From Thermomonospora catenispora (GTDB taxonomy: Bacteria; Actinomycetota; Actinomycetes; Streptosporangiales; Streptosporangiaceae): a stretch of 37,648 nucleotides of DNA. Where the stretch lies: positions 1 to 37,648 of the forward strand of contig NZ_RRYT01000015.1 of the NCBI RefSeq assembly GCF_006363815.1, written 5' to 3'. The notes beneath the pieces are model-generated. The model was not told the origin of the DNA. It did not search any database and saw only the letters and a program-made list of their open reading frames with translations. Numbering within the stretch: the stretch's first letter is position 1; each line of letters opens with the position of its first letter. Below are positions 14,550 to 37,648 of the stretch, one piece after another. The position numbers and the translations under genes are program-made.

Positions 14550-14656
14550 CCGACTAGTGCGCACAGCCGCACAATCCACCGCTCATGAACGCATCCGCCC
14601 GCAGGTGAGGTATGCGTCGATCACCCACGTCGCAACGAAGGGAGGGGGGTGTCCCC

Positions 14657-15997
14657 ATGCCGCGCACCGCCGCCGTGCCCACCCCGCGCCGGGAGACGCC
14701 GTCCGGGCTGCTCGAGGACCTCCTGGAGCGCGGCCGGGCCCAGGGCCACCTCTCTCTCAGCGAGGTCCGCAAGGCCTTCGAGAACGCCGGGATCAGCCCG
14801 AGGCAGGGCCGTTCGCTGCTGCGGAAGATCACCGAGGCCGGCGTGGACCTGGCCACCGAGGACGAGCTCTCCACCCCCGCCCGACGCCGCCGCGCCGGGA
14901 CGGCCGGCACCGCCTCCGAGGGCGCCGAGAGCGCCGGCGCCGCCGGGCGCACCCGCAAGGCCGCCGAGACCGGCCCCACGGCGGTGCCGGACGCGCCGAC
15001 GCCCGAGGAGGACGAGGCGTTCCAGATCGAGGCCGTCGAGACCGAGAAGGACGAGGCCGCCGACGCCGACCTGGACGACGTCTCCAGCGCCATGGGCGAC
15101 TCGGTGCACACCTACCTGAAGTCGATCGGCCGCCGTCAGCTGCTGACCGCCGAGCAGGAGGTCGAGCTGGCCAAGCGGATCGAGGCCGGGCTGTACGCCG
15201 AGTACAAGCTGGAGAACGAGCCCGACCTGTCGCCCCAGGAGCGCGAGGAGCTGGAATGGGTGGCCGAGGACGGCCGCCGCGCCAAGGCCCACATGCTGGA
15301 GGCCAACCTGCGGCTGGTGGTGTCGGTCGCCAAGAAGTACTCCGACCGCGGCCTGTCGCTGCTGGACGTGGTGCAGGAGGGCAACCTGGGCCTGATCCGC
15401 GCGGTGGAGAAGTTCGACTACACCAAGGGCTTCAAGTTCTCCACCTACGCCATGTGGTGGATCCGGCAGGCCATCCAGCGCGGGTTCGCCGACTCGGCCC
15501 GCACCATCCGGCTGCCGGTGCACGTGCTGGAGATGCTCAGCAAGCTGAGCCGCGTCGAGCGGGACATGCACCAGCGGCTGGGCCGCGAGCCCACCCCCGA
15601 GGAGCTGGCCGCCGAACTGGACAAGAGCCCGGAGCAGGTGCGCGAGCTGCTGCGCACCAGCCGGCAGCCGATCAGCCTGGACTCCACCATCGGCGAGGAC
15701 GGGGAGACCCGGATCGGCGACCTGATCGAGGACATCGACAGCCCCGAGGCGTCGGAGATGGTCGACCGGCAGCTGATGGCCGACCAGCTGCGCCGCACGC
15801 TGTCCATCCTCTCCCCGCGGGAGGAGATGATCATGTCGATGCGGTTCGGGCTGTACGACGGCACCCCGCACACCCTCGACGAGATCGGCAAGCACCTGGG
15901 GCTGACCCGCGAGCGGATCCGCCAGCTGGAGAAGGAGTCGCTGTCGAAGCTGCGGCACCCCAGCAACGCGACGCCGCTGCTGGACTTCGCGGTCTGA
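14657..15997 (+). CDS. Sigma-70 family RNA polymerase sigma factor (RpoD/HrdB-like)
   Basis: A 446-aa sigma factor. The N-terminal region (about 15-70) resembles the region 1.1 helical domain of HrdB-type factors. An acidic/Ala linker follows, then region 1.2, region 2 ([18 protein letters not shown], about 213), region 3 and region 4.2 ([20 protein letters not shown], about 416). The presence of a region 1.1-like domain suggests a primary or primary-like factor. Region 2.4, however, differs from the nearly invariant principal-sigma sequence: YAMWW instead of YATWW, and [11 protein letters not shown] where principal factors have RQAITRxxADQ. It may therefore be a group 2 factor. GGGAGGGGG precedes ATG 14657 by 7 nt. 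I leave the symbol empty because the choice between primary and alternative is open. Confidence 0.92.
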
Positions 15998-20620: not shown

Positions 20621-21001
20621 TCACGCCGACGCCACCTCCACCCGATCCTGCGGCGTCCGGCGGATCCGGAACGTGGGCAGGGCGACCCGGGGGTCGTCCA
20701 GGCACCGCCCGGTGCGCAGGTCGAACACCTGCTTGTACATCGGGGACGCCACGGTCGGGACGTCGCCGCGGGTGCCCAGGATGCCGCGGGAGATCACATA
20801 GGCGCCGCTGAAGGGATCGAAATTGGACAATGCATACAGTTCGCCGTCGAACGTCCGGAAGATCGCCACCTGGACGTCCTCGATCAGCGCCGCGACGCCC
20901 CGTTCGGGCAGCAGGTCGGAGTAGGCGCACACGTCGTGCCAGCGGATCGTCGACCGCTGCCCGACAGCGGTCGACGGTCGCGTCTGCACGTCTGCGGTCA
21001 T
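20621..21001 (-). CDS. nirD: Nitrite reductase (NADH) small subunit NirD
   Basis: A 126-aa subunit of cytoplasmic assimilatory nitrite reductase. It has the Rieske-type fold without the iron-sulphur ligands: the usual CPxH position reads SPMYKQVFDLRTGRCLDDP. That loss is normal for NirD, which serves a structural or regulatory role beside NirB. The segment YALSNFDPFSGAYVISRGI is a strong family match. The ATG at 21001 overlaps the nirB stop by 4 nt (ATGA), so the subunits are translationally coupled. Length is normal. Confidence 0.95.
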   Translation of the reverse strand: MTADVQTRPSTAVGQRSTIRWHDVCAYSDLLPERGVAALIEDVQVAIFRTFDGELYALSNFDPFSGAYVISRGILGTRGDVPTVASPMYKQVFDLRTGRCLDDPRVALPTFRIRRTPQDRVEVASA

Positions 21002-23538
21002 CGGCTCAGCACCTCCCGTTGGGGTCCGGTCCTCAGTACCGGCTTGATCTGGTCGCGTTCGGTCTCGAAGACGATGCTGGGATCGGGCACGTCGGGGGCG
21101 TTGACGAAGGAGACGAAGCGCCGCAGCTTGTCGGGGTCCTCCAGGGTGTCGCGCCACTCGTCGGAGTAGGACGCCACATGGCGCTCCATCGCCGCGTCCA
21201 GCTCGGCGCAGATCCCCAGCCGATCCTCGATGATCACTTCGCGCAGGTAGTCGATGCCGCCGTCCAGGCCCTCCAGCCAGCTCGCGGTGCGCTGCAGCCG
21301 GTCGGCGGTACGGATGTAGAACATCAGGAAGCGGTCGATGTAGCGGACCAGGGTCTCCTCGTCCAGGTCGGAGGCGAACAGGTCCGCGTGCCGGGGCCGC
21401 ATGCCGCCGTTGCCGGCCACGTACAGGTTCCAGCCCTTCTCGGTGGCGATGATCCCGAAGTCCTTGCTCTGCGCCTCGGCGCATTCGCGGGCACAGCCGG
21501 ACACCGCCGCCTTGAGCTTGTGCGGGGCGCGCAGGCCGCGGTAGCGCAGCTCCAGCCGGATCGCCAGGGCGACCGAGTCCTGCACGCCGTAGCGGCACCA
21601 GGTGGAGCCGACGCAGGACTTCACCGTGCGCAGCGCCTTGCCGTAGGCGTGACCGGACTCGAACCCGGCGTCCACCAGCCGCTTCCAGATCTGCGGCAGC
21701 TGCTCGACCCGGGCCCCGAACAGGTCGATCCGCTGCCCGCCGGTGATCTTGGTGTAGAGGCCGAAGTCGCGGGCCACCTCGCCGATCACGATCAGTTTCT
21801 CGGGGGTGATCTCCCCGCCGGGGATCCGCGGCACCACCGAGTAGGTGCCGTTCTTCTGCAGGTTGGCCAGGAAGTGGTCGTTGGTGTCCTGCAGCGCGGC
21901 CTGCTCCCCGTCCAGGATGTGCCCATTGCCGAGGCTGGCCAAGATCGAGGCGACCGCCGGCTTGCAGATGTCGCAGCCGCGGCCCCGCCCGTGCTCGGAG
22001 ATCAGCTGGGTGAAGGTGGTGATCCGGCGGACCCGCACGATGTCGAACAGCTCGGCGCGGCTGTGGTCGAAGTGCTCGCAGAGCGCCTTGTCGACCTCGA
22101 TGCCGGCCGCGACCAGCTCGGCGTCCAGCAGCCTCTTGACCAGGGGGACGCAGCTGCCGCAGGAGGCGCCGGCCCGGGTGCAGGATTTGACCCCGCCCAC
22201 GTCGGTGAGGCCCTCGTCGCGGATCGAGCGGCGGATGGTCTCGGCGGTGACGTTGTTGCAATTGCAGATCACGGTCGCGTCCGGCAGGTCGCCGCCGGCC
22301 GGTCCGACACCGCCGAACAGCGTCTGCCCGGGGCTGTCCGGCAGCGCGGAGCCCACGCAGGCGCGCAGCGTCGGGTAGGCGGAGGCGTCGCCGACCAGCA
22401 CGCCGCCCAGCAGGGTGCGGGCGTCGTCGCTGACGACGAGCTTGGTGTAGACGCCGTCGACCGGGTCGGTGTAGGTGACGCTGAGCGTCCCCTCCTCCCG
22501 GTCGGCGAACGGGTCGCCGAAGCTGGCCACGTCCACGCCCATCAGCTTCAGCTTGGTGGAGGTGTCGGCGCCTTCGAAGCGGGCGTTCCCGCTGCTCCCG
22601 CCCGCCTCGGCCAGCAGCTGGTCGGCGACCGCCTCGGCCATCGACAGGCACGGCCCGACCAGCCCGTAGACCCGGCCGCCGATCAGGGCGCACTCGCCGA
22701 TCGCGAACACCGCCGGGTCCGCGGTGCGGCAGGCGGCGTCGACCACGACGCCGCCGCGCTCGCCGACCGGCAGTCCGCAGCGGCGGGCCAGCTCGTCGCG
22801 GGGCCTGATGCCCGCGGAGAACACCACCACCCGGGCCTCCAGGGCCGAGCCGTCGCCGAGCCTCACCCGGGCGACCGCGCCGTCCTCGCCGGCCTCCAGG
22901 GCCGCCACGGGCGTCCCGGTGCGCACCCTCAGTCCCAGGGCCTCGATGTGGCGGCGCAGCATCGCCCCGCCGCCCTCGTCGAGCTGGCGCGGCATCAGCC
23001 AGGGGGCCACCTCGACCACGTGGGCGTCGACGCCCAGGCCCTGCAGTGCTCGGGCGGCCTCCAGGCCCAGCAGACCGCCGCCGATCACCACGCCGCCGGC
23101 GCCCGGCCGGGCGGCGCAGTGCTCGCGCAGCGCGTCCAGGTCGTCGATGGTGCGGTAGACGAACACCCCGGGCAGGTCCCGGCCCGGGACGGGGGGCACG
23201 AACGGTGATGAGCCGGTGGCCAGCACCAGTGCGTCGTAGCCGACCCGGCGCCCCGAGGCGGTGGTGACCGTGCGGGCCGTCCGGTCGATCTCGACCGCCG
23301 GATCACCGGTGTGGACGGTGACCTCGGGTCCGTGCGCGGGGAGGGCCAGATCGGCGCCCTCGGTGAGGTGGGAGGTCAGCGCCACCCTGTCGTAGGCGGG
23401 GCGCGGCTCCTCTCCGACGACGGTGATCCGCCAGGCGCCTGTGACGTCCCGCTCGCGCAGCGCTTCGACCAGGCGATGTCCGGCCGGGCCGTGACCGACC
23501 ACGACCAGCCTTTTGCGGGCTTCCCCTCCGACGTTCAT
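20998..23538 (-). CDS. nirB: Nitrite reductase (NADH) large subunit NirB
   Basis: Multidomain enzyme (846 aa) that reduces nitrite to ammonium with NADH. Order: FAD domain starting VVVGHGPAGHRLVE, NAD domain with GGVVIGGGLLGLEAA, NirB linker, BFD-type [2Fe-2S] domain (CNCNNV near 425 and CGSC near 455), nitrite/sulphite reductase ferredoxin half-domain, and the [4Fe-4S]-sirohaem domain (CVGSTWCRYG near 640, SGCARECAEAQ near 677). All four sirohaem-cluster Cys are present. It is the first gene of the nirB-nirD-nnaR-chelatase unit. A five-box, 11-bp-period element like a GlnR operator ends 22 nt before its ATG. Together with the nasA unit this completes assimilatory nitrate reduction. Confidence 0.97.
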   Translation of the reverse strand: MNVGGEARKRLVVVGHGPAGHRLVEALRERDVTGAWRITVVGEEPRPAYDRVALTSHLTEGADLALPAHGPEVTVHTGDPAVEIDRTARTVTTASGRRVGYDALVLATGSSPFVPPVPGRDLPGVFVYRTIDDLDALREHCAARPGAGGVVIGGGLLGLEAARALQGLGVDAHVVEVAPWLMPRQLDEGGGAMLRRHIEALGLRVRTGTPVAALEAGEDGAVARVRLGDGSALEARVVVFSAGIRPRDELARRCGLPVGERGGVVVDAACRTADPAVFAIGECALIGGRVYGLVGPCLSMAEAVADQLLAEAGGSSGNARFEGADTSTKLKLMGVDVASFGDPFADREEGTLSVTYTDPVDGVYTKLVVSDDARTLLGGVLVGDASAYPTLRACVGSALPDSPGQTLFGGVGPAGGDLPDATVICNCNNVTAETIRRSIRDEGLTDVGGVKSCTRAGASCGSCVPLVKRLLDAELVAAGIEVDKALCEHFDHSRAELFDIVRVRRITTFTQLISEHGRGRGCDICKPAVASILASLGNGHILDGEQAALQDTNDHFLANLQKNGTYSVVPRIPGGEITPEKLIVIGEVARDFGLYTKITGGQRIDLFGARVEQLPQIWKRLVDAGFESGHAYGKALRTVKSCVGSTWCRYGVQDSVALAIRLELRYRGLRAPHKLKAAVSGCARECAEAQSKDFGIIATEKGWNLYVAGNGGMRPRHADLFASDLDEETLVRYIDRFLMFYIRTADRLQRTASWLEGLDGGIDYLREVIIEDRLGICAELDAAMERHVASYSDEWRDTLEDPDKLRRFVSFVNAPDVPDPSIVFETERDQIKPVLRTGPQREVLSR

Positions 23539-23560
23539 GGGGCGATCCTCAGCAGGAGGC

Positions 23561-23609
23561 GTTTCGCGGCTGGGTCCCCTCTGTCACCGGCGTGTTAAAA
23601 GCCGCTCAC
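23561..23609 (-). promoter_or_regulatory. GlnR-like operator array upstream of nirB
   Basis: Read on the minus strand, five 5-bp boxes occur at exact 11-bp period: GTGAG (23605-23609), TTAAC (23594-23598), GTGAC (23583-23587), GACCC (23572-23576) and GAAAC (23561-23565). GlnR of actinomycetes binds GTnAC-n6-GAAAC units in this phasing. The same boxes in the same order precede nasA. A conserved segment continues to 23552. Confidence 0.65.
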
Positions 23610-23644
23610 CTTGAGACGTTTTCGTGGTCATCTCGTGACCTGAC

Positions 23645-23686
23645 GCGCAGACGGGACCCGCCGAGAACGGCGGGTCCCGTCTGCGC
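23645..23686. terminator. Terminator of the nasA operon, 19-bp perfect stem
   Basis: GCGCAGACGGGACCCGCCG (23645-23663), loop agaa, exact complement (23668-23686). It lies 62 nt past the stop of the flavoprotein gene and upstream of the nirB promoter, so it separates the nasA and nirB units. Confidence 0.8.
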
Positions 23687-23748
23687 GGTCGTTCGGTGTG
23701 CGGTCGTGATCGTCCGGTCGCGGCCGGCGACGTCGGGGCGCGGGCGGG

Positions 23749-25233
23749 TCAGCCGGCGGGCGCGGGCTCGGGTTCGGGCTCTTGTTCCCTCAGCCACGCC
23801 ACGAGGCCCTCCACGGTGTCCCGGCAGCCTCCGCACCCGGTGCTCGCCCGGGTGGCGCGGACGATGTCCTCGACGGTCCGGGCGCCGCGCTCCCAGCAGG
23901 CGCGGATCTGTCCCTTGGAGACGTTGCTGCAGTTGCACACCGTCGCCGCGTCCGGCATCCGCACCGGCGAGTCGCTCACCGTGGCGCCGTTGACGCCGGG
24001 GAACAGCAGGCTGAGCCGGTCCGACGGCAGCGGGGCGTTCCGGTCGTACAGCTGGGCGAGGGCCCCGGCGGTGCCGGTCTCCCCCAGCAGGATCGCCCCG
24101 ATCAGCCGGCCGTCCCTGATGACGACCTTCTTGTAGGTGCCGCGGGCGGGATCGGCGAACCGCACCACCTCCACCTCGGGGTCGTCGTCGCCGTGGTGGG
24201 TCTCCCCCATCGCCGCCAGCTCCACGCCGGTCGCCTTGAGCCGGGTGATCTGCCGCGCCCCGGTGAACCTGGCGGCGGCGTCGGCGCCGCCCAGCAGGTC
24301 GGCCAGGACCACGGCCTGCTCCCAGGCCGGCGCCACCAGCCCGTACACCGTGTCGCCGTATTGCGAGCACTCCCCGATCGCCCGGACGGCGGGGTCGGTG
24401 ACCGACCGCAGCGTCTCGTCCACCACGATGCCGCGATCGACCTCCAGCCCGGCCTCCCGCGCCAGCCGCACGTCCGGCCGCACCCCGCAGGCCATGATCA
24501 CCAGGTCGCCGGGCAGGAACTCCCCGTCGGCCAGCTCCACCCCCACCGCCCGCCGCTCCCCGTCCGGGCCGGTCTCGGTGCGCAGCGCGGTCACCGCCGC
24601 CCCCACCCGGGTGCGGACGCCCAGCCCGGCCAGCGTCCGCGCCAGCACCCGGCCGGCGTCGGGGTCGAGCTGCCGTTCCATCAGGTGCCCGGCCAGGTGC
24701 AGCACCGTCGCCTCCAGGCCGCGGCCGGCCAGCCCGCGGGCGGCCTCGATGCCCAGCAGCCCGCCGCCGACCACCACCGCACGCTCGGCCCGGTCGGCCA
24801 GCTCGACGATGCGGCGGCAGTCCTCCAGGGTCCGGAACGCCGACGCCCCGGACGGCAGCCCCTCCTCGGCGCCCGGGATCGGCGGCACGAACGCGACGCT
24901 GCCGGTGGCGAGGACCAGGGTGCCGTACTCGGTCGCGCTCCCGTCGGCGGCGTGCACCACCCGCCGCTCACGGTCGATCCCGACGACCTCCACGCCCAGC
25001 CGGGCGTCCACGTCGTTGCGCTCGTACCAGGCGGGGTCCACCAGGCCGATCTGCTCCGGCCCGACCGCTCCGGCCAGCACGCTCGACAACAGCACCCGGT
25101 TGTAGGGCTGCTGCGGTTCGGCGCCGAACACGGTCAGCGGCACCTCGCGGTCGCGGGCGCGCAGCTCGGTCACGAACCGTGACCCCGCCATGCCGTTGCC
25201 GACGACGACGATCCGGTCGCTCAGCGATGTCAC
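23749..25233 (-). CDS. nasB: NAD(P)H/FAD oxidoreductase with C-terminal BFD [2Fe-2S] domain (nitrate reductase electron-transfer subunit)
   Basis: A 494-aa flavoprotein resembling the N-terminal half of NirB. The FAD motif is VVVGNGMAGSRF, the NAD motif is AVVVGGGLLGIEAARGL, and a C-terminal BFD-like cluster site has Cys433 and Cys435 (VCNCSNV) with Cys467 and Cys470 (GCGGC). It contains no sirohaem domain. Such proteins pass electrons from NAD(P)H to the molybdenum nitrate reductase. The GTG start at 25233 overlaps the nasA stop by 4 nt (GTGA), so it is made together with NasA. The acidic tail (EQEPEPEPAPAG) is unusual but harmless. The symbol follows the Klebsiella/Bacillus-type electron-transfer subunit; naming differs between species. 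Confidence 0.87.
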   Translation of the reverse strand: MTSLSDRIVVVGNGMAGSRFVTELRARDREVPLTVFGAEPQQPYNRVLLSSVLAGAVGPEQIGLVDPAWYERNDVDARLGVEVVGIDRERRVVHAADGSATEYGTLVLATGSVAFVPPIPGAEEGLPSGASAFRTLEDCRRIVELADRAERAVVVGGGLLGIEAARGLAGRGLEATVLHLAGHLMERQLDPDAGRVLARTLAGLGVRTRVGAAVTALRTETGPDGERRAVGVELADGEFLPGDLVIMACGVRPDVRLAREAGLEVDRGIVVDETLRSVTDPAVRAIGECSQYGDTVYGLVAPAWEQAVVLADLLGGADAAARFTGARQITRLKATGVELAAMGETHHGDDDPEVEVVRFADPARGTYKKVVIRDGRLIGAILLGETGTAGALAQLYDRNAPLPSDRLSLLFPGVNGATVSDSPVRMPDAATVCNCSNVSKGQIRACWERGARTVEDIVRATRASTGCGGCRDTVEGLVAWLREQEPEPEPAPAG

Positions 25234-27356
25234 TGATCGGCTCCGCTCTGCTCGATGGGCTCGATCCGCACGGCGCACACCTTGAACTCGGGCATCCTGG
25301 ACACCGGGTCGAGCGCGGGATTGGTCAGCAGGTTGGCGCGTCCCTCCCCCGCCCAGTGGAAGGGGATGAACACGGTGTCGTGCCGGATGGACTCCACCAA
25401 CCGCGCCCGCACGACGGCGGCGCCGCGGCGGCTGCTCACCCGCACCATGGCGCCGTCGGTCACGCCGTGCCGCTCGGCCAGGTCGGGATGCAGCTCCACG
25501 AACGGCTCGGGCGCGGCCTCCACCAGCGGCGCCACCCGACGGGTCTGCGCACCGCTCTGGTACTGCGCCAGCACCCGGCCCGTCGTCAGATGGACCGGAT
25601 AGTCCTCATCGGTCCCCTCGGCCGCGCCGCCGTGCTCGACCGGGACGAACCGCGCCCGCCCGTCCGGGGTGGCGAAGCGGTCCAGGAAGGGCCGGGGCGT
25701 GCCCGGGTGGTCCGGGGAGGGGCACGGCCAGAAGACGCCGCCTTCGGCCTCGATGCGCTCGTAGGTGATGCCCGAGTAGTCGGCCGGGCCGCCGGCGCTG
25801 GCGGCCCGCAGTTCCTCGAACACCTCGGCCGGATCGTCGCTCCAGGCGCCGGGGGCACCCAGCCGCCCGGCCAGCTCGGCGATGATCTCCAGGTCGGACC
25901 TGACCCCGGGCGGCGGATCGACCGCCCGCCGGCGGCGCAGCACCCGGCCCTCCAGGTTGGTCACCGTCCCCGACTCCTCGGCCCACTGCGTCGTGGGCAG
26001 CACCACGTCGGCCCGCAGCGCGGTCTCCGACGGCACGAAGTCCGCCACCGCCAGGAACTCCAGCGCCCCGAGGCGCTCCTCGACCCGGGCGGACCGCGGG
26101 GCCGACACCACCGGGTTGGAGCCGAACAGCAGCAGCGCCTTGGGGCCGTCCTCGGTGCCCAGCGCCTCCAGCAGCTCGTACGCCGACCGGCCCGGGCCGG
26201 GGATGACGTCGGGGTCGACCCCCCAGACGGCGGCGACGTGGGCGCGCGCCGCCGGGTCGTCGATCCGGCGGTAGCCGGGGAGCTGGTCGGCCTTCTGGCC
26301 GTGTTCGCGGCCGCCCTGGCCGTTGCCCTGCCCGGTCAGGCAGCCGTACCCGGACCCCTCCCGGCCGGGCAGTCCCAGCGCCAGCGCCAGGTTGATGAAC
26401 GCGGTGACGGTGTCGGTGCCGCGGGCGTGCTGCTCGGCCCCCCGGGCGGTCAGGATCAGCGATCTGCGTCCCCGCGCCAGCAGCCGCACCGCCTCGCGCA
26501 TCTGCGGCGCCGGCACCCCGGTGATCCGCTCGACCCGGTCCGGCCAGTAGGCGTTCACCGACATCCGGACCTGCTCGAACCCGTCGGTGCGCGCGCGGAT
26601 GTAGTCCTCGTCGACCAGCCCTTCCTGGATCGCCAGGTGCAGCATCCCGTTGGCCAGCGCCAGGTCGGTGCCGGGGGTCGGCTGCAGATGCAGGTCGGCC
26701 CGCCGGGCGGTGACGGTGCGGCGCGGATCGATGACGATCAGCGCCCCGCCGCGCTCGCGCATCTCGGCCAGATGGCGCATGAACGGCGGCATGGTCTCGG
26801 CGACGTTCCCGCCCGCCACCATGATCGCGTCCGCCCGCGCCAGATCGGTGATCGGCATCGGCAGCCCGCGGTCCATCCCGAACGCCCGGTTCACCGCGGC
26901 GGCGGCCGAGGACATGCAGAACCGCCCGTTGTAGTCGATCTGCGCGGTGCGCAGCGCGATCCGGGCGAACTTGCCGAGCTGGTAGGCCTTCTCGTTGGTG
27001 AGCCCGCCGCCGCCGAACACCCCGACCGCGTCCCGGCCGTGCCGCCCCTGGAGGCGGGTCACCTCGGCGACGATCCGGTCCAGCGCCTCGTCCCAGGTGC
27101 ACGGCTCCAGCGGCGCGTCCCGGCGGGCGCGCATCAGCGGCGTGGTCAGCCGGTCGGCCGCGGTCAGCAGCTCGGCCGCCGTCCAGCCCTTGTGGCACAG
27201 CCCGCCGCGGTTGGCCGGAACGTCCTGACGCGGCGTCACCCGCACCGGGACGCCGCCCACCGTCATGCCGCACTGCAGCGCGCAGTAGGGGCAGTGGGTG
27301 GGGGCTCCGTCCGCCGCGGCCGTGTCCGGCGCGCGGGTCCGTTCACTCGCCGTCAT
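25230..27356 (-). CDS. nasA: Assimilatory nitrate reductase catalytic subunit (molybdopterin)
   Basis: A 708-aa Mo-bisMGD oxidoreductase reducing nitrate to nitrite in the cytoplasm. The N-terminal [4Fe-4S] site is Cys22, Cys25, Cys29 and Cys54 (HCPYCALQCG...GGLCHKG). Cys147 in GRFCMSSAAAA is the expected molybdenum ligand, as in NasA/NapA. The C-terminal molydopterin-dinucleotide domain starts near VHLTTGRVLAQYQSG. There is no Tat or Sec signal, which fits an assimilatory rather than periplasmic enzyme. It leads the nasA-flavoprotein unit and is preceded by a GlnR-like box array ending 24 nt before the ATG. Complete and normal in length. Confidence 0.96.
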   Translation of the reverse strand: MTASERTRAPDTAAADGAPTHCPYCALQCGMTVGGVPVRVTPRQDVPANRGGLCHKGWTAAELLTAADRLTTPLMRARRDAPLEPCTWDEALDRIVAEVTRLQGRHGRDAVGVFGGGGLTNEKAYQLGKFARIALRTAQIDYNGRFCMSSAAAAVNRAFGMDRGLPMPITDLARADAIMVAGGNVAETMPPFMRHLAEMRERGGALIVIDPRRTVTARRADLHLQPTPGTDLALANGMLHLAIQEGLVDEDYIRARTDGFEQVRMSVNAYWPDRVERITGVPAPQMREAVRLLARGRRSLILTARGAEQHARGTDTVTAFINLALALGLPGREGSGYGCLTGQGNGQGGREHGQKADQLPGYRRIDDPAARAHVAAVWGVDPDVIPGPGRSAYELLEALGTEDGPKALLLFGSNPVVSAPRSARVEERLGALEFLAVADFVPSETALRADVVLPTTQWAEESGTVTNLEGRVLRRRRAVDPPPGVRSDLEIIAELAGRLGAPGAWSDDPAEVFEELRAASAGGPADYSGITYERIEAEGGVFWPCPSPDHPGTPRPFLDRFATPDGRARFVPVEHGGAAEGTDEDYPVHLTTGRVLAQYQSGAQTRRVAPLVEAAPEPFVELHPDLAERHGVTDGAMVRVSSRRGAAVVRARLVESIRHDTVFIPFHWAGEGRANLLTNPALDPVSRMPEFKVCAVRIEPIEQSGADQ

Positions 27357-27380
27357 GGTCCCTGATCGTGTGCAGGGGGC

Positions 27381-27429
27381 GTTTCACCTCCGGGTCCCGG
27401 TCGTGTCCCGGATGTTAAAAGCGTTTCAC
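27381..27429 (-). promoter_or_regulatory. GlnR-like operator array upstream of nasA
   Basis: On the minus strand the boxes are GTGAA (27425-27429), TTAAC (27414-27418), GACAC (27403-27407), GACCC (27392-27396) and GAAAC (27381-27385), again at exact 11-bp period. Order, phasing and several spacer bases match the element before nirB. Similarity extends to 27372. Confidence 0.65.
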
Positions 27430-27660
27430 CGAGCCGCGTTCGTCGAGGTCAGCGACTTGTCCGCGATGCCGGCCGGCCCTCGCCCGGTCGACTCGGCCCG
27501 CCCCGCCGCGACCCGACCATGATCGCGTCTCCGCTGTTCTCATCGCCGGTCACGATCGCATTCGGCGCCCCGAGCCCGCGGCTCGAACGGATCGACGGCC
27601 CGTCCCCGCTCGGCGTCAGATTGCCGACGGCGGGCCCGAAGGGCGCCCGCGGGCACGCCG

Positions 27661-28607: not shown

Positions 28608-30011
28608 TCAGACCCCGGCCTGCGCCAGGCTCATCCGCCTCTCCCCGATGCGCACCTTCCGCAGGTAGGCCGCCCAGGTGAGGACCATGCACAGGACGTA
28701 GCACACGGTCAGCCCCACCAGCGCCGGGCCGACCCCGCCGGTCTGCTCCAGCGAGATCCGGAACGCCTGCTGGATCAGCACGCCGCCGAACGCGCCCACC
28801 GCCGAGGTGACGCCGATCACCGCCGCGGCCTTGCGGCGCGCCAGGGCCAGCGCCCGCTCCGCGGCCGGCCCGTCCGCCGGATCGACCCCCTCCATCACCG
28901 TGACCTTGAAGATCGCCGGGATCATCTTGTAGGTCGAGCCGTTGCCGATGCCGGTGGTGACGAACACGAACAGGAACGCCGCCAGGAACACCGGCCAGCT
29001 GCCGGCCCGCACCGCCAGCGCCACCGCGCCGATGCCCAGCGCCATCAGCAGGAAGTCCACCGCGGTGACCCGGGCGCCGCCGAACCGGTCGGCCAGCCAG
29101 CCGCCCAGCGGCCGGGCCAGCGACCCGGCGAACGCGCCCAGCCAGATGTAGTGGGCGCTCTCGATGTGGGGGAACTGCGTCTTGATCAGCACCCCGAACG
29201 AGAACGAGTAGCCGATGAACGACCCGAACGTGCCGATGTAGAGCACGCTCATGATGAGCGTCTGGGGCTCGCGGCTGATGGCGGCCATCTCGCGGAGGGT
29301 GTAGGGCGAGGCGACCTTGCGCAGGTTGTTCATGAACAGGTACGCGCCGGCGGCCGCCACCAGGATCAGCGGCATCCACACCCAGCCGACCGCGGCCAGC
29401 CCGAACGCCGTGATCAGCGGCGGCATCGCCAGCTGGGTGACGCTGGTGCCCAGGTTGCCGCCGGCGGCGTTCAGTCCCAGCGGCAGCCCCTGCTTGCCGG
29501 TCGGGTAGAAGTGCGTGATGTTGGCCATCGAGGAGGCGAAGTTGCCGCCGCCCAGGCCGGTGGTGGCCGCGATGAGCAGCAGCGCCCAGTACGGGATGTC
29601 GGGGTCGCCGACCGCGTACACGAACAGTCCGCACGGGACCAGGAGCAGCAGCGCGCTGACGATGGTCCAGTTGCGGCCGCCGAACCGGGCCGGCCCGAAG
29701 GTGTAGGGGATGCGCATCGCCGCGCCGACCAGGTTGGGCAGCGTGGTCAGCCAGAGGACCTGACCGACCGACAGCCGCATCCCCACCGACTCCAGGTGGA
29801 GGACGGCGATGCTCCACAGCAGCCAGACGCAGAACCCCAGGTGTTCGGTCAGGATCGACCAGACCAGGTTGCGGGCGGCCACCCGGCGGCCGGTCCGCGC
29901 CCAGAACCGCTCGTCGTCCGGCTCCCAGTGGTCGATCCAGCGGCCGCCCTTGGCGGAGAGGGACCCGGCGCCCGTGTCGTCGGCGCGCTCGGGCCTGGCC
30001 AGCACCGTCAT
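28608..30011 (-). CDS. narK: Nitrate/nitrite transporter (NarK, MFS)
   Basis: A 467-aa major-facilitator permease with about twelve hydrophobic segments. The two nitrate signatures are recognisable: GLGGGNFASSMANI in the fifth-helix region and FVTTGIGNGSTYKMIP in the eleventh. The N-terminal ~50 residues are cytoplasmic and polar (WEPDDERFWARTGRRVA). It imports nitrate or exchanges nitrate for nitrite, feeding NasA and NirBD encoded upstream in the window. GGAGG lies 7 nt before ATG 30011. Unlike nirB and nasA, I do not see a clear box array before it. Transcribed alone. Confidence 0.95.
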   Translation of the reverse strand: MTVLARPERADDTGAGSLSAKGGRWIDHWEPDDERFWARTGRRVAARNLVWSILTEHLGFCVWLLWSIAVLHLESVGMRLSVGQVLWLTTLPNLVGAAMRIPYTFGPARFGGRNWTIVSALLLLVPCGLFVYAVGDPDIPYWALLLIAATTGLGGGNFASSMANITHFYPTGKQGLPLGLNAAGGNLGTSVTQLAMPPLITAFGLAAVGWVWMPLILVAAAGAYLFMNNLRKVASPYTLREMAAISREPQTLIMSVLYIGTFGSFIGYSFSFGVLIKTQFPHIESAHYIWLGAFAGSLARPLGGWLADRFGGARVTAVDFLLMALGIGAVALAVRAGSWPVFLAAFLFVFVTTGIGNGSTYKMIPAIFKVTVMEGVDPADGPAAERALALARRKAAAVIGVTSAVGAFGGVLIQQAFRISLEQTGGVGPALVGLTVCYVLCMVLTWAAYLRKVRIGERRMSLAQAGV

Positions 30012-30172
30012 CGCTCTGCCTCCAGATGGTCGAAGGAACACCTGGAAGCTAGGGAGCGCTGATTACATCGAACGCCCGCCGATGTGCCCGAGGTGATACA
30101 TCCTCCGCACAAGAGCGGCCCTCGAGTGTGAAACGGCGGGTGGGACGACGGGCGTGAACGGCGCCGGCCCGC

Positions 30173-37524: not shown

Positions 37525-37532
37525 GTCTCCCC

Positions 37533-37636
37533 CTCTGTCATCTGCACCTGAGAGCTTCACCCGCCGGGCGGCGGGCTTGCACCTTCGGTGAGACGCCGTT
37601 CCCCGTTCGCACCGGGAACACGCCTGCTTTCCAGAG
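37533..37636 (-). ncRNA. Glycine riboswitch aptamer
   Basis: Read on the minus strand, the aptamer opens with CTCTGGAAAGC and closes with GACAGAG, forming P1. Between them are the conserved core ACCGAAGGTGCAA (37577-37589) and GAAGCTCTCAGGTGCA (37543-37558), the signature of gcvT-type glycine aptamers. One complete aptamer is seen. Whether it is a singlet or the second of a tandem pair cannot be decided, because the window ends 12 nt upstream. It controls gcvP. Confidence 0.9.
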
Positions 37637-37648
37637 AAGCCTCTCCCG

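Follow-up and report, generated by a model that had tools for sequence, protein, structure and literature searches.

The nitrate genes in the DNA analysed here, a stretch of 37,648 nucleotides referred to as the window, are preceded at two places by five pentamers of closely similar sequence, and the question raised by this locus is which regulators the pentamers serve. A sequence-only reading had regarded them as consecutive boxes of GlnR, one more than the usual four, and had suggested co-binding, perhaps with the NnaR-type protein encoded nearby.

The nitrate gene cluster and its two arrays

The genes of the cluster that are considered in the current analysis are as follows.

28608-30041, minus strand: narK-type transporter
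25230-27356, minus strand: nasA, assimilatory nitrate reductase catalytic subunit, 708 aa (best NCBIfam model NasC, with a score under the cut-off of that model)
23749-25278, minus strand: pyridine-nucleotide/BFD-type reductase
20998-23538, minus strand: nirB, nitrite reductase large subunit, 846 aa
19403-20590, minus strand: nnaR, 395 aa, with a uroporphyrinogen-III-synthase-like and an OmpR-type DNA-binding domain (PF02602, PF00486)

The closest relatives of NirB are encoded in Thermomonospora and Actinomadura (79-88% identity), and the host of the window is, as judged from sequence, a Thermomonosporaceae-like actinomycete. The product of nnaR combines the HemD-like and the OmpR DNA-binding domains that are expected where an NnaR operator is proposed. 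The genome also encodes GlnR (L235), whose best match is 8hih_O (E-value 6.1e-93) and which matches 4o1h, an entry named GlnR, with an E-value of 1.2e-29. Two NnaR-like matches per genome (E-value of 1e-30 or lower) have been identified in 8 of 200 genomes (G018, G020, G057, G063, G094, G135, G152 and G165).

The pentamers of the two arrays are given below, with the names of the GlnR boxes assigned to them.

23605-23609, minus strand: GTGAG, box 1 of nirB, candidate half-site; as GTGAGCG it fits the quoted right half of the NnaR motif, GTGAG[CG][GA]
23594-23598, minus strand: TTAAC, predicted GlnR box a1 of nirB
23583-23587, minus strand: GTGAC, predicted GlnR box b1 of nirB
23572-23576, minus strand: GACCC, predicted GlnR box a2 of nirB, the least conserved among the four
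23561-23565, minus strand: GAAAC, predicted GlnR box b2 of nirB
27425-27429, minus strand: GTGAA, box 1 of nasA, candidate right half of an NnaR-like palindrome
27414-27418, minus strand: TTAAC, predicted GlnR box a1 of nasA
27403-27407, minus strand: GACAC, predicted GlnR box b1 of nasA
27392-27396, minus strand: GACCC, predicted GlnR box a2 of nasA
27381-27385, minus strand: GAAAC, predicted GlnR box b2 of nasA

When the box starts are read again, the five boxes stand at an exact spacing of 11 bp both before nirB (23561-23609) and before nasA (27381-27429), as had been described, except that the nirB array ends at 23561, 9 bp short of the bound of 23552 originally assigned to it. The two arrays are identical at 22 of the 25 box bases and at 33 of the 49 bases over their whole length, and each is the best match of the other within the window when both strands are compared. 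The runner-up match of the nirB array is 27, the match to nasA having a z of 6.2 against all positions; that of the nasA array is 31 and lies on its own opposite strand. The further proposal that the spacers share bases fails, because the 11 of 24 identical spacer bases (mean 7.4) are equalled by 8.9% of all window positions. All the five boxes are kept in the genome of the window and in 4 of 4 congeners, and the five-box sequence feature is real and conserved; the disappearance of boxes in near relatives that would have spoken against the sequence-only reading is not seen.

Several other features of the window were recorded. A very stable hairpin (23642-23690, minus strand) separates the nirB array from the reductase gene, the 76-nt stretch that contains it folding at -56.7 kcal/mol (z -8.0). 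It is without a run of T in the window and the congeners have T-rich sequence in its place; the hairpin probably serves as a terminator, by which the nirB promoter would be isolated. A glycine riboswitch (RF00504, 50.5 bits) is found at 37525-37644 on the minus strand and a sigma-70 family factor with regions 1.1 to 4 is encoded at 14612-15997 on the plus strand, while a search of Rfam at gathering thresholds gave no match at the array. No GlnR site is claimed for narK in the window, since the best score there (1.0, at 30099) is lower than the best score of the reversed window (1.8).

Boxes 2 to 5 and the likely -10 element

For comparison across genomes 110 nirB, 83 nasA and 21 glnA leaders were collected, and were aligned by a matrix for boxes 2 to 5 alone that had been trained on the same leaders. 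Among them, 29 nirB loci beyond that of the window and 38 nasA leaders, a second copy of nasA and an additional nirB leader were taken from part of the homologue matches. Leaders with a score below 20 were dropped (51 of the 110 nirB, many of which stand directly behind another gene, 34 of the 83 nasA and 1 of the 21 glnA) and identical duplicates were removed (4 nirB and 2 nasA), so that 55, 47 and 20 promoters were kept. Shuffled leaders, in which only the single-base content is preserved, reach a score of 8.9 at the 99.9% point. The sequences are related and the counts that follow are not independent trials.

A pattern of boxes 2 to 5, derived from the nirB, nasA and glnA sites themselves and strict enough to miss looser sites such as that of amtB, occurs with at most one mismatch at three sites of the 5.35-Mb genome, namely those three, and nowhere in the reversed control. 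Exact matches are present at the same three promoters in 4 of 4 congeneric genomes, where one mismatch adds a single match in one of the four and the reversed control yields none or one in each. The glnA site of the window's own genome reads GTAAC-GAAAC-GACAC-GAAAC, in the a-b-a-b order given for GlnR sites (PMC10704036), and this established GlnR target has the same site at the same distance to the -10 element in the 4 congeners as well. The boxes TTAAC, GTGAC/GACAC and GAAAC of nirB and nasA fit the GTnAC/GAAAC-type pentamers of GlnR, with their 11-bp spacing and the A at position 4 that is reported to be required (PMC10704036). Box a2 (GACCC) is without this A; a2 has been reported as dispensable both for S. 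coelicolor amtB (PMC5826061) and for the A. mediterranei nas operon (PMC10704036).

The nirB and nasA promoters have in common with the glnA-type GlnR cis-element, as known from Streptomyces and further actinomycetes, the four pentamers, the 11-bp spacing and the position upstream of the -10 element, whereas they differ in b1 (GTGAC/GACAC), in a2 (GACCC) and in the extra pentamer 11 bp upstream. Boxes 2 to 5 are a standard four-box GlnR site of the glnA kind, at which binding is predicted. The complex of GlnR with polymerase has been described with four DNA-binding domains arranged head to tail on a four-site promoter (Shi 2023, as cited in PMC10704036), and at a1-b1-a2-b2 four GlnR protomers would likewise bind head to tail and contact polymerase.

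The likely -10 elements of the two promoters are the following hexamers.

23545-23550, minus strand: GAGGAT, likely -10 of nirB, 10 nt after b2 and 6 nt before ATG
27365-27370, minus strand: CACGAT, likely -10 of nasA, 10 nt after b2 and 8 nt before ATG

A -10-like hexamer (nAnnnT), with A as its second and T as its sixth base, stands 10 nt after b2 in all the 122 aligned promoters. All the 20 glnA hexamers begin with T, against 9 of 55 at nirB and 0 of 47 at nasA, and a scan for consensus sigma-70 promoters over 23400-23800 gave no site. The first ATG follows the hexamer by 6-8 nt in 42 of 55 nirB and 41 of 47 nasA leaders, the start codons not having been checked singly; at this distance glnA has no ATG and a GTG in 2 of 20. 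At nirB and nasA of the window the start codon lies within the 5-8 nt or so after the -10 element that would be expected of a leaderless GlnR/NnaR promoter, and features of leaderless transcripts have been reported for mycobacterial NnaR targets (PMC6277429). The nirB and nasA transcripts probably start at or beside the ATG. A weaker -10 element would make the nitrate genes depend on activators, and GlnR, with its boxes ending 10 nt before it, would recruit RNA polymerase under nitrogen limitation.

A Shine-Dalgarno-like GGAGG has been noted inside the first nirB codons (23521-23538, minus strand), after the apparently leaderless ATG. Internal GGAGG is also seen, for example, in leaders L009-L012, L053, L089, L092-L094, L097 and L099, and in two of these, L010 and L011, another in-frame ATG comes after it; the true nirB start may vary between species.

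Box 1 and its probable inverted partner

In the promoters aligned on boxes 2 to 5 only, GTGAR is found 11 bp upstream of a1 (position -11) in 47 of 55 nirB, 20 of 47 nasA and 0 of 20 glnA promoters, and the mean information content of the pentamer at this position is 1.46 for nirB against 0.32 for glnA. A further 16 of the 47 nasA promoters have GTGAR at -20, the palindrome described below lying 9 bp further upstream. Among five genomes of the same genus, that of the window included, the -11 pentamer is GTGAG at nirB in 5 of 5 and GTGAA or GTGAG at nasA in 5 of 5, and at glnA it is CCGCA, CGGCA, GTGCA, CGACA or CGGGG. The same array layout has been identified before nirB in other families, such as those of Cellulosimicrobium, Janibacter and Phycicoccus. 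GTGAR is at neither position in 8 of 55 nirB and 11 of 47 nasA promoters, which read GTTAG, GTTGG, GGGAG (four) and others.

The NnaR motif reported for M. smegmatis is CTCAC[AC]-N16-[TG]GTGAG (23 bp), which is situated near GlnR sites with conserved spacing (PMC6277429), and the motif quoted for promoters of S. coelicolor and M. tuberculosis is CTCAC[AC][CG]-N13-16-GTGAG[CG][GA] (PMC11162112). Box 1 resembles the right half of these motifs, and an inverted left half has been located upstream of it in both arrays.

23626-23631, minus strand: ATGACC, candidate left inverted half-site of nirB, 22 bp start-to-start with GTGAG
27447-27452, minus strand: CTGACC, candidate left half-site of nasA, 23 bp start-to-start with GTGAA

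Compared by hand with the published CTCAC[AC], these agree at 4 of 6 and 5 of 6 positions respectively. ATGACC of nirB and TGACC of nasA are kept in the genome of the window and in 4 of 4 congeners. If the left half is anchored instead on the CAC of GACCACG, the gap is 14 nt, and TGACC was preferred. The left half of nirB is overlapped by a GGTCA-N5-TGACC dyad (23626-23640, minus strand); as GGTCAC-n3-ATGACC it is kept in the same genome, in 4 of 4 congeners and in L015, and is not present in all Actinomadura.

A partner of the form CT[CG]AC[AC] (at least 5 of 6 positions, G at position 3 having been allowed only after ATGACC and CTGACC were seen) is found 22 or 23 bp from GTGAR in 61 of the 83 promoters with GTGAR at -11 or -20, that is, in 30 of 47 nirB and 15 of 20 nasA promoters of the -11 register and in 16 of 16 nasA promoters of the -20 register; other distances give counts of 0-4. 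The full CTCAC[AC] occurs at 22-23 bp in 6 of 47, 0 of 20 and 11 of 16 promoters of these classes, and at other distances once at 13 bp, once at 12 bp and nowhere else. Palindromes with a width of 21-24 bp are present in 31 of 55 nirB and 32 of 47 nasA promoters, where shuffled upstream regions average 0.22 and 0.15 per set and never exceed 2; none of the 20 glnA promoters has one. In the genome of the window a composite pattern drawn from these sites finds nirB and nasA only, and among the 4 congeners nasA escapes it in 2. The restriction of the operator to nitrate and nitrite genes is less certain with regard to amtB, where a GTGAG is conserved. The palindrome is regarded as a unit separate from the GlnR boxes, since it occurs at two distances from them and keeps its own width.

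The candidate operator shares with the NnaR operators of M. smegmatis, and with those quoted for S. coelicolor and M. tuberculosis, a GTGAG half beside a GlnR site, a candidate inverted half 22-23 bp upstream, the association with nitrate and nitrite genes and a leaderless-like start. It differs from them in that the left half in the window is TGACC and not CTCAC, that the spacing at nirB is 22 and not 23 bp, and that the right half is at -20 instead of -11 in 16 of the 47 nasA promoters.

The distribution of NnaR itself was considered as a natural knock-out. One genome was usable: in G084 (350 contigs, 99% complete), where the NnaR search gave a partial match only (E-value 5e-5), the four GlnR boxes are kept before nasA and CCCGG replaces box 1. 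This argument is weak and was set aside, because G012 and G026 are without box 1 at -11 despite the presence of NnaR.

Taken together, these comparisons argue that the array is likely to be a four-box GlnR site joined by the right half of an in-phase NnaR palindrome, box 1 being that half. GlnR and NnaR, proposed as partners from the outset, are the best-supported regulators, since GlnR-type boxes are present and both proteins are encoded; the accompanying count of five GlnR boxes in a row is not the reading that fits best. Both proteins bind nirB of M. smegmatis in EMSA (PMC6277429), and NnaR is reported to bind the nirB promoter of S. coelicolor cooperatively with GlnR (Amin 2012, as cited in PMC10704036). 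In the mechanism that we infer, NnaR from the same cluster would bind the palindrome, made up of GTGAG or GTGAA downstream and of TGACC here (CTCAC[AC] elsewhere) 22-23 bp upstream, at about one helical turn from a1 and would strengthen GlnR, so that shortage of nitrogen, combined with the NnaR signal, would turn on nirB and nasA jointly. Cooperation through the DNA or through weak contacts is more likely than a stable GlnR-NnaR complex, since a weak protein-protein association only and a negative two-hybrid result have been reported for the M. smegmatis proteins (PMC6277429).

Other readings and the meaning of the arrangement

The first alternative is a true five-box array, in which box 1 would be a fifth GlnR site and GlnR would assemble beyond a tetramer. 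Box 1 is in register with the other boxes and keeps the G, the T and the A at position 4, and the amtB gene provides a further argument. At amtB of the window's genome and of 4 of 4 congeners GTGAG-n6-GAAAC-n6-GAAAC is conserved 42 bp upstream of a1 (in L118-L122, some 165 bp ahead of the matched domain). This run, headed by GTGAG in 5 of 5 genomes, resembles the a3-b3 box of S. coelicolor amtB, for which three GlnR boxes with six sites in the order a3-b3, a1-b1, a2-b2 are reported (PMC5826061), and GTGAG can therefore probably serve GlnR. The run lowers the support for the composite of GlnR and NnaR sites and raises that for five GlnR boxes and for a half-site shared by the two regulators. 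The same six sites also mean that a promoter with more than four GlnR sites would not lack a precedent. More than four GlnR-like pentamers per promoter are thus common to S. coelicolor amtB and to the arrays, but in the former all six are GlnR sites as reported, whereas here the extra pentamer is in phase and mostly accompanied by an inverted partner. In one amtB leader (L118) CTCACA is seen 19 bp upstream of GTGAG, and no site was found at the second amtB-type gene of G140 (L139).

Five GlnR boxes would also accommodate the 16 of 47 nirB and, similarly, the 5 of 20 nasA promoters that have GTGAR at -11 and no left half at 21-24 bp. The nirB leaders concerned are L009, L014, L016, L017, L019-L024, L095, L103, L106 and L108-L110, of which 10 of 16 belong to a second Actinomadura group where GTGAG is still kept. 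In the nasA promoters of the -20 register (for example L026, L028, L029, L207, L211, L217 and L222) the -11 position is again occupied by a conserved pentamer, GTTAG (8), GTTGG (7) or TTTGG (1), in 16 of 16; it fits neither regulator well by its bases, GTTGG and TTTGG being without A at position 4. Against a fifth GlnR site, GTGAR is absent from -11 not only in all the 20 glnA promoters but also at the amtB four-box site of all five genomes (which read CGGAG, CGGAG, CGGGT, GACGG and GGCGG there), the fifth base of box 1 is G or A and not C, and box 1, mostly partnered at the nitrate genes, moves with its inverted partner at a fixed distance, independent of the GlnR boxes. On account of glnA, the amtB four-box site and the moving palindrome this alternative has been ranked second and is considered unlikely.

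It is a good deal less probable that the array is mainly bound, or competed for, by a different OmpR-type regulator whose sites are almost the same (MtrA, PhoP or AfsQ1). The motifs of MtrA are reported as nearly identical to those of GlnR, and mycobacterial nirB is among its targets (PMC6277429). In S. coelicolor an interaction of AfsQ1 with both the nirB and the nasA promoter is reported (PMC10704036), and an MtrA-like protein (L237, a name assigned by eye) is encoded in the genome; but the strict four-box pattern is confined to glnA, nirB and nasA, a nitrogen set, with which competition would still be compatible. That the likeness of the arrays reflects recent copying of one promoter and not function is scarcely credible, for although they share a gene cluster and two thirds of their bases (33 of 49), the spacers are alike only to the extent reached at random positions (11 of 24, 8.9%), the boxes of each promoter are retained from genus to genus and the nirB layout extends to other families.

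The composite of a four-box GlnR site and an NnaR palindrome may be carried one step further, tentatively and with rather less expectation of being right. Box 1 could be a shared half-site at which NnaR occupies the place of the next GlnR protomer, as part of a spacing code for mixed assemblies combined with a weak -10 element. GlnR can perhaps itself use GTGAG, as at amtB, and NnaR would then nucleate, cap or compete for the end of the head-to-tail row of GlnR, the deliberately weak -10 making both regulators necessary. The palindrome is found mainly in two registers on the same face of the DNA; with 10.5 bp to the turn, -11 and -20 correspond to +17 and -34 degrees.

Co-activation of nirB by GlnR and NnaR is already published, and the arrangement described here is of a known kind, to which the two palindrome registers and the weak -10 element are modest additions. 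Among the titles listed by the literature searches none named Thermomonosporaceae or Actinomadura, from which a general absence from print is not claimed. The current analysis extends the known co-activation to Thermomonosporaceae and offers a concrete geometry that can be tested, namely the register of the palindrome, the 10 nt to the -10 element and the leaderless ATG. It also carries a caution, as the in-phase half-site of a second regulator can be misread as an extra box of the first. The register rule, if true, would help to explain how one promoter reads a nitrate-linked and a nitrogen-starvation regulator together.
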